From a virus, in IMG/VR virus record IMGVR_UViG_3300021477_000018, positions 1-39,368 of that record: 39,368 nucleotides of DNA; one strand, written 5' to 3'. The notes under the pieces were generated by a model. That model was not told the DNA's origin. It saw only the letters and a program-made list of their open reading frames with translations, and did no database searches. This document shows positions 12,860-22,823 of this stretch, piece after piece. Within the stretch, counting starts at the first letter, position 1. Each line of letters begins with the position of its first letter. The position numbers were made by a program, and so were the translations under genes.

Positions 12860-15650
12860 ACTGCATTCTATTGCTTGTCGGTGTGACATAAAATATCATC
12901 GCATGCATTTGGAAGTCATTCAATGCTACATACGAAACCGATCCATCTGTATTAACTGTATATCCCGACATCTGGCTTGGGGACATCACTATTTGTAATT
13001 GTACACATTCACCTTCAGCGTAGGTATAAATCGGGTGCCATAAACGAGTCTGATATTGCTCAAAGTTAGATAATGCATAGGGACTTGTTTCAAGTGTTCC
13101 ATCTCCTGGTAATGGACCTGGTGATGCTTCAGTTCCTAAACCATCAGTCACAATCGATATATCAGCTGAAGATGTCAGATAATCAACAAATACCGCACCA
13201 TTATTAGTTCTATTAACTAAGAAATCTATGCGAGCCATATACATATTTCTATCATTTTCAGTGTAGAAATTATATTGCTTAGTAAGAATATTCATATTAG
13301 TTACGGTTGATATAACACCCCCTCCTGTATATGTTCCTGTAATAACAATAGGCAGAATACCAGTATTATCAACTGCATATATACCAAATTCATTAGGGGT
13401 ATTAGCACTCACAGGATCTGGAGTAACTCTTGCCATAAGCGAGGGTAATACATTACCTAATGAATCTGTAAAGACTAATCCATTCATATTCTCAAATAAC
13501 ACATAATCATTTAATGATAAGTTATGATTAATGCATGATATAGTTGCTGTTCCAGAAGCAGTAGTCGTAAAGTTAGTAACTTGTAATGAAGGAGCTGATG
13601 ATGGAATATTCGTTTGAAGTATCTGAACAAACCCCTCTTGGTTACCAGCAATAATTGCTTTTATGGTCGTATTGTTGGTTGTACTTGAAGTAGAATTCCA
13701 TTGATTACTATTCTCACCCCATGGCGTTGTTGCCTCACCCCATGTTATACCAACAGCTTCTGGTGGTTGGAAGAAATATCCAAACGTGGTGAAGGAATCA
13801 TCAATAGTTGCCCATGAATCATTAACGTAATTGTATGCCAATATTTGATTAGGGAAATAGAAATCAACATTGCGATCATCACTGACGACTGTCCAATAAG
13901 CCATTTCATTGTAATAGTCACGAATACCAGCAACCCGATCTTGCCCATTCATTTCATTACTGATACCAAATGGATATTGCGGTATCTTGTTATCGATACG
14001 TTCTACATTAGCTCCATTACATGCATGAATACCATTATCATCAACACCCAAGACAACTTTATCAAAAGGAATCTCAGAAAAGGTAGATATGGCGCCAAGT
14101 TCATTGTTAATTTTTTGCCATGTGAATGGAAGAGTTTGATTAGAGGTGTATACCAATTCATAAGTTGAAGATGTAAAATAAACGATTAAGCGATCTTTAA
14201 TAAATTGTACTGTAACGATAGCCTCTTGCGTTGGAGCATCAACCGCATTTCCATTTCCTGGGATATCTTGCATCCATGATGTTGCAGATAATGCACTACC
14301 AACTGCAGAATAGCGAGCTCTAAATGGATAGGTAACGGCAACACCAGCAGCAACTTCAACAGTGTTAAGTAATATTAATCTATTTTTGAATTGCACAACA
14401 ATCTGTGCAGTCTGAATATAATTATTACCTGTAAAGAAAATAGGTGTTGAAATAGTTGCACCCGTGAAGGTATAGGCACCATTTGTTGTATTAAATGTTC
14501 CTGTTCCGATTGGTCCTGCTTTCGTTGATGATACGGGAACCAATGCACCATTAGCAACTGTTACAATAAATTGGGTGAATCCAATGACAAATACTTGTCC
14601 TATAAATCCAAATCCATCGGGAACATTGCCTGAAGCAGCACCCATATCACTCGTTGTATCAATTTGAGTTCCTACCGTCCAATTAAGAACTGGCTGTACC
14701 CAAAATGTATTATCCCAGTACCGTATACCATCTGGTGGATTAAAATTGGTTGTCCATAATGTATCGAGAGCTGCAACTGCACCTTGATAATTAACAGACC
14801 AGAAGAATTCATAATCAGTTCCTGTCCATATCGAAGCAGCTGATGATGTAACTGCTGTATCAACATTAGATGCTGTAATGGTTAATGTACCAAATCCAGA
14901 TCCTGGACTTGTTGGATTAAAGAGCGCAGATCCTGTACCACCAGAGGATACCTGTAAAGCATATGGCGTAGTTAAGGTAGAAGTTATAACGGTAAATGTT
15001 GTACCTCCTACAGTTATAACCGTTCCGACAGGCATTTGATCAATAAAGAAAACACCAGAAAAATTGCCTGAGCCATCAGTTGTACCAACTACATTAGCCG
15101 TTGTTAATCGCAACCATGCATTACTGACAAGATCATATTGGTAAGCAAACTGAGTATCAAATCCAATCGTTGCAAATGCATTTGATGATTCTACAAAGTA
15201 TTGCGTTAAACCCATAACTGGCGTCGCTGGATAAAACCATATATCGAGTCCAGAACTATAGCCCGTAAAGGTAAAATTGCCTGTTGTAGTATCAAATGTG
15301 CCAGATGTGGCCACATTGGTTGATAACATAGCTGCAGGACTACCTGTTTGATATACCGTAAAGATATCATCATTGATCGTAAACATTTGCCCTACCGCAA
15401 ATACATCTCCTGGAACAGTTCCTGAATATACCGAAGTTGCATAGGTATTCGTCGTCAATAGACGTAATCTTGATTGAGTTTGATCTAATCCCATAAGAAC
15501 TGTACCAAAACGTTTTCGAACTCTTCCACGTAAAATATATGCATTATTCAATATTTGGAACGCATTGTCCGATATCAACCAAGGTTTTAGTGACGTCTGA
15601 AAACCACTTTCATTATCTGCATAACCGACGAGAAATTTATCATATGCCAT
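12858..15650 (-). CDS. Large tail protein
   Basis: 930 aa, the longest gene here. The N-terminus (LKPWLISDNAFQILNNAYIL, then RGRVRKRFGT) is a pattern I associate with large podovirus tail hub or stabilisation proteins. Internal beta modules recur, e.g. SGTFDTTTGNFTFTG and TGTFNTTNGAYTFTG about 270 residues apart, each preceded by a GxxFxI...F.V unit. The central part (VQFIKDRLIVYFTSSTYELV) looks like propeller-type strands and the C-terminus is all-beta. Directly downstream of three receptor-binding-type proteins, consistent with forming the tail body they attach to. No catalytic motif identified. Confidence 0.6.
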   Translation of the reverse strand: MAYDKFLVGYADNESGFQTSLKPWLISDNAFQILNNAYILRGRVRKRFGTVLMGLDQTQSRLRLLTTNTYATSVYSGTVPGDVFAVGQMFTINDDIFTVYQTGSPAAMLSTNVATSGTFDTTTGNFTFTGYSSGLDIWFYPATPVMGLTQYFVESSNAFATIGFDTQFAYQYDLVSNAWLRLTTANVVGTTDGSGNFSGVFFIDQMPVGTVITVGGTTFTVITSTLTTPYALQVSSGGTGSALFNPTSPGSGFGTLTITASNVDTAVTSSAASIWTGTDYEFFWSVNYQGAVAALDTLWTTNFNPPDGIRYWDNTFWVQPVLNWTVGTQIDTTSDMGAASGNVPDGFGFIGQVFVIGFTQFIVTVANGALVPVSSTKAGPIGTGTFNTTNGAYTFTGATISTPIFFTGNNYIQTAQIVVQFKNRLILLNTVEVAAGVAVTYPFRARYSAVGSALSATSWMQDIPGNGNAVDAPTQEAIVTVQFIKDRLIVYFTSSTYELVYTSNQTLPFTWQKINNELGAISTFSEIPFDKVVLGVDDNGIHACNGANVERIDNKIPQYPFGISNEMNGQDRVAGIRDYYNEMAYWTVVSDDRNVDFYFPNQILAYNYVNDSWATIDDSFTTFGYFFQPPEAVGITWGEATTPWGENSNQWNSTSSTTNNTTIKAIIAGNQEGFVQILQTNIPSSAPSLQVTNFTTTASGTATISCINHNLSLNDYVLFENMNGLVFTDSLGNVLPSLMARVTPDPVSANTPNEFGIYAVDNTGILPIVITGTYTGGGVISTVTNMNILTKQYNFYTENDRNMYMARIDFLVNRTNNGAVFVDYLTSSADISIVTDGLGTEASPGPLPGDGTLETSPYALSNFEQYQTRLWHPIYTYAEGECVQLQIVMSPSQMSGYTVNTDGSVSYVALNDFQMHAMIFYVTPTSNRMQ

Positions 15651-20693: not shown

Positions 20694-21329
20694 TTAATAA
20701 ATTGTGCAACGTAAGTTGTATAACCAGCTGTCATTACATATTCTGGGCACTTGTGCATATTTGTAACCGACACTGGCGTTCTGAGCCAATGGATCACTGA
20801 ACATTGGAGGCCGATAGATGAAGGAACTAGAATATCTGTCCTGGTCAATCACGGCATAAGCCTCTAATCCAACGCAGAAAATGTTATACACATTCTTGCC
20901 TTTTTCAGATGCTTTATACGTAATACTGCCTATGCTCGATACTAGGAACCTGAGATTCGAGATGCTTCCCCACTCTGATCTAAGCACGTTCATCTGCGAT
21001 GGGTACTGCGCTTTCGCAATAAATCCGTTCACAGAATCAAATGCTTTTGTCAGGTTGGTATGACATAAAGCAAAGTATGCATCTCTTGTAGGTGCGGTGC
21101 CGAATTTATCTTCGCCATCAATGTGATCAAGCATTGTAGCTGCGTTGTTTCCAAGCAAAGCTAAAATAACATCATCAATATCAGGACGAGTTAAGTTTGT
21201 TGGGTTATCGCCATTGATACCAGCTGTACAGTTAATGAAAGAAGCTGTTGAAGCCAACATATTACGTATCAGGGTGTCTTCAGACTGACGGAGCGAAACG
21301 CCAAGACGGCAAGTGATCTCATTCAGAAC
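20694..21329 (-). CDS. Major capsid protein, exon 2 (C-terminal 211 residues)
   Basis: Exon 2 encodes residues 105-315 of the spliced capsid protein. It starts VLNE immediately after the 3' splice site and continues in frame to TAA. The sequence (RLGVSLRQSEDTLIRNML, then PDIDDVILALLG, DKFGTAPTRDAYFALCH, NLRFLVSSIGSI and a C-terminal QNASVGYKYAQ) fits the N4-gp56/P22-like HK97-fold capsid group. Without splicing this frame stays open far into the intron, so gene callers will report a wrong, longer protein. The boundary is fixed by P10 pairing and by the terminal intron G. Confidence 0.85.
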   Translation of the reverse strand, partial: VLNEITCRLGVSLRQSEDTLIRNMLASTASFINCTAGINGDNPTNLTRPDIDDVILALLGNNAATMLDHIDGEDKFGTAPTRDAYFALCHTNLTKAFDSVNGFIAKAQYPSQMNVLRSEWGSISNLRFLVSSIGSITYKASEKGKNVYNIFCVGLEAYAVIDQDRYSSSFIYRPPMFSDPLAQNASVGYKYAQVPRICNDSWLYNLRCTIY

Positions 21330-21459
21330 CAATTCTGTTACTTTTATGACCATTTTCATGGCGGACAGGATTCTTCGATCCCATCTCTCTAGGTTTCCTC
21401 TAGAGGTCAGACTATCGCATACTCTTTTTATAGAGTCTTCCTCACTTAGTCGTTCACCC

Positions 21460-21488
21460 TGGACATCATTTATAAATTCATTTACAAT
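21460..21488 (+). promoter_or_regulatory. Candidate promoter for the antisense endonuclease gene
   Basis: On the plus strand TGGACA (21460-21465), 17 nt, TACAAT (21483-21488) is a fair sigma70 match. It would start RNA near 21495, about 30 nt before the endonuclease ATG. It lies inside the intron, just outside the P7 segment of the ribozyme on the other strand. Prediction by eye only. Confidence 0.45.
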
Positions 21489-21524
21489 CAAATAGTGCAC
21501 TTGTCTCATAAAATTAAGGAAATA

Positions 21525-22049
21525 ATGGAAAGACGAAGAAACTATTACAAACGCTCTCTTGATTATGTTGCTACCAAATATAAAGAAGTTGATCTTGCTT
21601 ATATGGCAGGAATTATCGATGGAGAAGGCTGCTTTTTCATTGGAACTGTTCCTAAAAAAGACGGTGATGGATATATCAGTCAACATTATCGAGGACTTCT
21701 TAAAGTTGATAATACTGATATTCGTCTTATTGAATGGATTGATATTACATTTAGCGGAACTTCTAGCTCTAATACTAAATGGACATCTACCAGAAGGTTT
21801 GAAAGAAAAATATTTAGTTGGATAGCAACTGGAGACAGACTCCTTGATATCGCTGAACATATTCTTCCGTATCTTGTCATCAAAAAAGAACAATGCGAGA
21901 TCATGATTGAGTTTAGAAAAACTTATACGCAAAGATTGGGAAGTACTAAAGTCTCTAAAGAGAACTTGGACATCCGTCAACAATGCTTGGAAAAAATTCG
22001 TAAACACAATTCTCGCTACCATCTACATCCTTTAAAAGGAAATTTATAA
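21525..22049 (+). CDS. LAGLIDADG homing endonuclease, antisense to its host intron
   Basis: 174 aa from ATG 21525, chosen because AAGGA lies 4 nt upstream; a GTG at 21495 is the longer alternative. Residues about 23-40 contain one LAGLIDADG helix, LAYMAGIIDGEGCFFIG, with the catalytic acidic residues at the helix end. Then follow GLLKVDNTDIRLIEWI, FSWIATGDRLLDIAEHILPYL and VIKKEQCEIMIEF, the usual order of single-motif enzymes that cut as homodimers. It would make a double-strand break in an intronless capsid gene and drive intron copying. It is encoded opposite to the intron and capsid gene, so capsid mRNA cannot express it. Confidence 0.9.
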   Translation: MERRRNYYKRSLDYVATKYKEVDLAYMAGIIDGEGCFFIGTVPKKDGDGYISQHYRGLLKVDNTDIRLIEWIDITFSGTSSSNTKWTSTRRFERKIFSWIATGDRLLDIAEHILPYLVIKKEQCEIMIEFRKTYTQRLGSTKVSKENLDIRQQCLEKIRKHNSRYHLHPLKGNL

Positions 22050-22133
22050 ACTATATCCTTGGGCCCTGTCACCTTAGCAAATGCCGTAGGCTTCCAAGTC
22101 AATCAGAGGAAGTTTATAGACCCCATTCTTTTT

Positions 22134-22445
22134 AGGGTCATTATTTTGGAGCGTTACTTGCTCGTTAATTGCCACAAAAGTGCCGTAGAAGGAAATTTTT
22201 GCGTCAATATCAACAACTGTCTGATTTTGGCCGGGAACTGGGTTACCAGTATTGCCTAATGGTACAAGTGCTGTATCCAGCGGATTGTATCTACGCATAC
22301 GAATAGTGGTCCCTGAATTAGCTTCCATCTTACGTCGCATAGCGGGTATTGCGTTAATGAAGTTAGGAACAGGTGTGGATAGCAATTTCATGCTAAACAT
22401 CTGAAGAACTGGTGATGGTAAAGTACTTGTAGTGACTACAGACAT
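22134..22445 (-). CDS. Major capsid protein, exon 1 (N-terminal 104 residues)
   Basis: Exon 1 starts at ATG 22445 (AGGAG 5 nt upstream; the ATG at 22448 is too close to it) and ends with codon CCT at the 5' splice site. The sequence (STLPSPVLQMFSMKLLSTPV, then PAMRRKMEANSGTTIRMRRY, PLGNTG, DAKISFYGTFVAINEQVTL and QNNDP) matches the start of N4-gp56-type capsid proteins. Joined to exon 2 it reads NNDP-VLNE, the expected continuation, giving 315 aa. Reading on unspliced adds 19 unrelated residues before a stop. This is the main shell protein; the scaffold is at 26375-27286 and the portal at 28982-31039. Confidence 0.88.
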
Positions 22446-22617
22446 CATTTCTCCTAAAATAAAATTAAACTATATAAGTCTTTGGCTTTTTACGGCTTGG
22501 ACTAGGTTAACTACTTTAAGTTGACGAAGCTTATTACGGTCGGTGAATTGATTGGGCGATGATCATACGGCCCGAGAATTTTTGTGAAGTTAGCGAGTCT
22601 TCGATACAGCTGCCGAT

Positions 22618-22683: not shown

Positions 22684-22751
22684 GGCAAAATAAAAATAAC
22701 AACCAACTGGACACAACCAATTAATTAATATGAAGGAGCAAACGTTTTTAG

Positions 22752-22823
22752 GATACATTGAGGGAATCGAACACTCGTCCCTGCTCACTTAAGAGCAGAT
22801 TCTACCACTGAACTAAATGTATC
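22752..22823 (-). tRNA. tRNA-like gene, anticodon not assignable
   Basis: The minus strand folds as a cloverleaf: an acceptor stem of 7 bp extended to 8 (GATACATT / AATGTATC), D-arm GTTC-AGTGGTA-GAAT, anticodon stem TGCTC / GAGCA, a 5-nt variable region, and a T-arm with the standard loop TTCGATT and one mismatch in its stem. The anticodon loop is abnormal: 6 nt (TTAAGT) with a 5-bp stem, or 8 nt (CTTAAGTG) with a shifted stem. TAA (Leu) is the closest readable anticodon. No 3' CCA is encoded. The G-1/C73-type pair recalls tRNA-His but no GTG anticodon is in register. It may be degenerate. Confidence 0.55.

Follow-up and report, generated by a model that had tools for sequence, protein, structure and literature searches.

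The major capsid gene of a phage is interrupted in the window, a 39,368-bp viral contig, by a group I intron that holds a LAGLIDADG homing endonuclease gene (HEG) on the opposite strand. Opposite the HEG, and aligned with its codons, the capsid strand carries a second open frame, hereafter the shadow frame. We place the whole account, in which a mobile capsid intron carries an antisense HEG driven by a promoter of its own, and the capsid strand bears a translated shield, at a probability of roughly 60%. Its most unusual component would be a pair of fully overlapping, codon-aligned frames that are both under selection, the shadow frame serving as a translation shield whose openness matters and whose sequence does not, and recurring in a double-motif family; for this part the odds appear about even.

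The ORFs flanking the HEG on the minus strand (22074-22448 and 20694-22022) correspond to successive segments of a single major head protein family, phrog_1357. The sequence-only reading had placed a plus-strand LAGLIDADG gene antisense to a minus-strand group I intron in a capsid gene, an arrangement with which the ORFs, the splice and covariation all agree. It gave no intron boundaries, and these are set here at 22133..21330 on the minus strand (804 nt) from P1, the terminal G, the restored reading frame and covariation. Exon 1 (22134..22448, minus strand, 105 codons) ends GAC CCT, and exon 2 (20694..21329, minus strand, 211 codons and a stop) begins GTT CTG AAT, encoding VLN; both match phrog_1357. 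Excision of the intron, which ends in G (GAATTG, followed by GTTCTG), yields a continuous 316-aa capsid protein with no interruption. The internal guide sequence GGGGUC (22119..22124, minus strand) pairs with exon GACCCU (22134-22139) to form P1, with a U.G pair at the splice site, and this pairing shows compensatory changes across relatives.

Covariation among 43 distinct relatives, analysed with the HEG cut out, gave a minus-strand consensus fold with P1, P3, P8 and P9, in which 30 of 34 pairs are compensatory. The 5' strand of P3, CUUCCUC (22106..22112, minus strand), pairs with GAGGAAG (21437-21443), and all seven of its seven pairs covary. Because P3 pairs across the endonuclease gene and so brackets it, the ribozyme can be assigned to the capsid strand. 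The remaining core lies at 21410..21452 on the minus strand and comprises the 5' strand of P7 (21447-21452), the 3' strand of P3, P8 (21432-21436/21421-21425, with covariation) and the 3' strand of P7 (21410-21414); the P7 sequences GACUA/UAGUC are conserved, and their pseudoknot pairing was left out of the covariation count. The HEG sits in the loop of a P6/P6a stem (21461..22058, minus strand), which is assigned, P6a included, by direct complementarity. P6 is formed by GGAUAU (22053-22058) with AUGUCC (21461-21466), and P6a by UUUAUAAAUU (22041-22050) with AAUUUAUAAA (21469-21478), both on the minus strand. The Rfam Intron_gpI model scores 15.1 bits on the window intron with the HEG inside and 31.8 bits (E=1.3e-4) on the intron that locus L164 has at this site without a HEG, against a gathering threshold of 50 bits that is a detection cut-off and not a structural feature. 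On the comparative evidence the 804-nt element in the phage major capsid gene is a group I intron, and self-splicing is predicted.

Capsid genes of this family are interrupted in more than one way. Group I introns occupy many different sites across the family, and several occur per capsid gene in L007, L008, L051, L100 and L067, some genes having at least four. Inserts of 29-54 nt, too short for a ribozyme, are also found in the capsid frame; each follows a U that pairs with a guide-like sequence and has G as its last nucleotide. They lie at codon 90 (L009:2819-2859, L043, L047, L053, L062, L081, L090 and L141, in capsid-oriented coordinates), codon 83 (L017, L019 and L195) and codon 106 (L070), and most are followed by a full group I intron 26-66 nt downstream. 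Their pairing is of the kind UACGGU, the insert starting after the final U, with GCCGUA, and AUGUGGAU/GUCCACAU changes to AUGUCGAU/GUCGACAU. The codon-90 inserts are present at 23 loci and in none of the 55 uninterrupted capsid genes, and the short inserts are possibly mini-introns excised by the neighbouring ribozyme. Beyond the capsid gene of the window, and between it and a gene for a Cpn60/GroEL-like phage protein (22830-24485, minus strand; Pfam E=8e-78), lies a tRNA-like gene (22751-22822, minus strand) with an unusual anticodon loop, which is read by ARAGORN as anticodon TAAG and is also found in L003. A 29-nt similarity at 13346-13374 is likely to be due to chance.

The HEG (21525..22049, plus strand) encodes 174 aa. 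Its Pfam LAGLIDADG_1 match (E=7e-4) falls slightly short of the curated cut-off, and a profile built from the HEG alignment matches I-MsoI (E=1.5e-18) and also I-CreI, which bears out the family named from the sequence. An AlphaFold model (pLDDT 77.5) retrieves I-CreI in Foldseek (E about 2e-8), with TM-scores of 0.66-0.68 by query length and 0.74-0.79 by target length. The motif reads YMAGIIDGEG, and D32-G-E34-G is invariant in 19 sequences, so that the acidic catalytic residue is present. The HNH label given to this family in PHROGs is at odds with the profile, motif and structure results. From sequence and model, the HEG product is an I-CreI/I-MsoI-like single-motif LAGLIDADG protein for which cleavage activity is predicted; it shares fold and family with these endonucleases at 16-20% identity. 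I-CreI and I-MsoI are themselves encoded in organellar rDNA introns. The median dN/dS of the HEG is 0.15, indicating purifying selection. The best palindromy at the insertion site is 0.53 against a background of 0.52, although real targets can be weakly palindromic.

Upstream of the HEG lie an AAGGA ribosome-binding site (21516..21520, plus strand) and a promoter-like sequence, TGGACA-17-TACAAT (21460..21488, plus strand), whose -35 element overlies the 3' strand of ribozyme P6. Both had been proposed from the sequence, and both are upheld by the relatives, in which AAGGA-like sites are conserved. Taken from the window sequence by itself the promoter is weak, being the best of eight hits in a search of the region where 6.0 are expected by chance; comparison makes the case strong. 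When introns are anchored on P7, 40 of 52 distinct antisense introns show a -10-like hexamer at a spacing of exactly 17 nt from the -35 position, each alternative spacing between 8 and 35 nt being found in at most 11, whereas the same anchor finds it in only one of 31 HEG-less introns. The promoter signal therefore belongs to the HEG and not to the ribozyme. In a hold-out set made up mostly of double-motif genes, a de novo promoter search gave a weak signal (mean z 0.83; 15/53), for which uncertain start codons are partly responsible. These comparisons support a conserved sigma-70-type promoter of the HEG's own.

IMG/VR and GTDB genomes were scanned for relatives, giving 154 distinct capsid loci, of which 55 lack any interruption. 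An antisense LAGLIDADG gene is present at 89 of the 154 and a sense one at eight. At or around the insertion site of the window, 82 antisense genes were found against two sense hits, both at one locus (L172); in these same capsid genes most sense copies lie at codon 88 or close to the N-terminal codons. In the tree the sense genes form a single clade (99/95 support), and orientation is therefore a stable lineage trait. Two sense LAGLIDADG domains occur in L172 (1690-2592), whose intron apparently occupies the capsid site that holds antisense genes elsewhere. Among the rejected matches are LAGLIDADG domains in L031-L036, which lie in frame inside DNA methyltransferase ORFs, and distant matches in Caulobacter and Streptomyces phages, which are one free-standing gene and one overlapping thyX, neither in a capsid intron. 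Mobility is suggested by the 55 uninterrupted capsid genes and by synonymous divergence, which is lower in the HEG than in the capsid gene for L007/L008 (dS 0.27 vs 1.81) and L004/L010 (0.36 vs 1.59); a third comparison gives 0.63 vs 2.26. Intron and HEG thus appear to have been shared more recently than their host capsid genes, as homing would give.

The shadow frame runs on the minus strand in the codon register of the HEG (21330..22022) from an ATG at 22022, with a candidate ribosome-binding site, AAAGGA (22028..22033, minus strand), 5 nt before it. It spans about 200 codons, from the C-terminal end of the HEG through the leader and into P7. The candidate start, an AGGA followed after about 5 nt by ATG, falls opposite the HPLK codons at that end of the HEG, and the Pro codon at this position is CCT in 22 of 31 cases against 102 of 287 elsewhere (p=1.8e-4). 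When codon use in the antisense HEGs is set against that of capsid exons and sense genes, CTA, TTA and TCA show the strongest depletion among 59 codons; these are exactly the reverse complements of the three stops. With expectations computed from capsid-exon codon use, 46 such codons are seen against 422 expected in 54 open antisense genes, and 65 against 70 in ten sense genes. Their distribution among antisense genes is bimodal, and six genes have a closed shadow frame (L012, L127, L136, L163, L171 and L089_A0; 61 seen against about 49). L012 is a case of natural shadow-frame loss: this antisense gene of the main clade has 13 antisense stops, and its shadow RBS codon is gone too (CCA). Given the six closed genes, the shadow frame is not indispensable.

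Openness extends beyond the HEG. At 29 loci, the stretch from the HEG start codon to P7 contains five stops in 589 codons of the register frame, against 57/562 and 78/561 in the other frames, and ten leader lengths of 49-91 nt all share one phase, so that indels preserve that of the shadow frame. The pattern recurs in a hold-out of further relatives that included a double-motif family of about 300 aa: 54 new antisense genes contain 165 stop-complement codons against 671 expected, with none in several 318-codon genes, whereas the controls give 42 vs 41 (four sense genes) and 83 vs 98 (ten LAGLIDADG genes outside capsid introns). Many of the double-motif genes of about 300 aa that lie antisense in capsid introns (L262-L323) have 0-3 antisense stops over 300 or more codons. 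In many cases the shadow frame stays open until P7, within the ribozyme core, or until exon 2. In the window it remains open in the exon 2 frame as far as 20694; this run-on is incidental, and a role in continuity with the capsid exons was rejected, exon 1 phase being random (26/26/34) and exon 2 phase unfixed. As judged by codon and stop counts across relatives, these results show that an open shadow frame on the capsid strand is maintained by selection, and the frame is probably translated.

What, then, is its role? That it encodes a functional protein, in antisense overlap with the endonuclease gene, might be argued from its length, its likely ribosome-binding site and start, its openness in more than 50 divergent genes and a conserved C-terminal tail, AERLSEK. 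This tail is read from the ribozyme core, however, and ribozyme conservation accounts for it. The dN/dS of the shadow frame is about 1.1, against 0.15 in the HEG frame, so that its amino acids appear unconstrained; modelling with a 23-sequence alignment gave no confident fold (pTM 0.27), and six genes are closed. A functional shadow protein is therefore unlikely. The open frame could instead be a by-product of codon bias, if the tRNAs for TTA, CTA and TCA are scarce when the endonuclease is made; the depletion is, after all, visible in the HEG's own codons, and its promoter is independent. Yet the depleted set is exactly that of the stop complements, sense LAGLIDADG genes in the same capsid genes show normal use of these codons, and the open frame extends past the HEG start into an untranslated leader with phase-preserving indels, all of which make codon bias alone highly improbable.

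Other explanations concern the orientation itself. In the switch put forward by the sequence-only reading, late capsid transcription would produce RNA complementary to the endonuclease mRNA, which could turn the HEG off late in infection. With a promoter for the HEG such complementarity is inevitable if both strands are transcribed, but a switch leaves unexplained why stops are avoided in one frame only of the capsid strand, and ribosomes translating that strand would be apt to remove duplexes; it is a possible reading, though on balance a doubtful one. The sequence-only reading had also suggested that ribozyme folding benefits from the antisense orientation, which would leave the intron free of ribosomes; this follows the logic of T4 introns, where structure represses translation of the intron ORF (PMC2988022). 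This suggestion fares poorly, since the capsid strand is kept open to translation over the whole insert and into P7 and has a likely start, which suggests ribosome entry, and we regard it as quite improbable. That the HEG lies backwards through an assembly error, or is a decayed relic, gains something from the metagenomic origin of the contig and from a relative (L026) whose HEG has an internal stop. Against this stand the 89 antisense loci, at which the objection of an assembly inversion fails, together with purifying selection, the conserved promoter and a second contig (L003) with an identical HEG; error or decay is scarcely credible.

We favour the account in which the capsid strand is translated for its own sake, the most likely role given that the amino acids of the shadow frame are unconstrained. 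The HEG, lying backwards in the P6 loop, would be transcribed from its sigma-70-type promoter apart from the late capsid transcript. Its product, to judge from family, horizontal spread and purifying selection, would cut intronless capsid alleles and so spread the intron. On the capsid pre-mRNA, ribosomes would enter the shadow frame irrespective of its sequence, and their cover over an otherwise untranslated 600-nt stretch may guard capsid expression against Rho termination, decay and pairing with HEG mRNA. Against this shield account, ribosomes reaching the P7 core or exon 2 should hinder ribozyme folding. If true, the shield would allow a late gene that is essential to carry a reversed gene within its transcript. 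The stop-free opposite strand is a clear sign that openness is selected without sequence, and it opens to direct test how a strongly expressed phage gene deals with a gene lying backwards inside it and why antisense frames may be translated.

The sequence-only reading took antisense homing genes to be known mainly from fungal and protist rDNA introns, but the orientation is already known in phage from one isolate, the mycobacteriophage LittleE, published in 2013 (PMC3706429). Its capsid gene 13 contains an intron with a bottom-strand LAGLIDADG frame, gp14, and splicing was demonstrated by RT-PCR and N-terminal sequencing (PMC3706429). LittleE shares with the window a group I-like intron of about 820 nt in a major capsid gene and a LAGLIDADG-type frame on the opposite strand; however, it is a single high-GC case for which no promoter or opposite-strand frame was described (PMC3706429). 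Over 99 aa its endonuclease has about 29% identity with the nearest gene of the present set, and two stops interrupt the frame that would correspond to the shadow frame in codon register. With the LittleE-type arrangement of an antisense LAGLIDADG gene in a capsid-gene group I intron now found in the window and at 89 loci, antisense homing genes in phage introns emerge as an old, widespread and stable arrangement, with a promoter partly overlying ribozyme sequence, for which the literature searched gave one published case.

Other systems share parts of this organisation. Myxomycete rDNA group I introns carry antisense His-Cys homing genes, e.g., I-DsqI, for which a separate promoter has likewise been proposed, but these differ in their eukaryotic rDNA setting, nuclease family, P9.2 location, spliceosomal intron and polyadenylation (PMC9548176). 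The T4 introns encoding I-TevI, I-TevII and I-TevIII are, like that of the window, phage group I introns with an internal endonuclease promoter, but their genes are in sense orientation, encode GIY-YIG or HNH nucleases and use middle or late promoters, and RNA structures repress endonuclease translation from the host-gene transcript (PMC2988022). All T4 homing genes are sense except the free-standing segD (PMC2988022). A methylase insertion with an out-of-frame HNH gene in phage ShiLan resembles the present case in being a phage homing element overlapped by a second frame free of stops, although both frames lie on the same strand and an intron is unsupported there (PMC11855218). Within the literature searched, three features are new: how broad the lineage is, the conservation of a promoter lying over P6, and the shadow frame.
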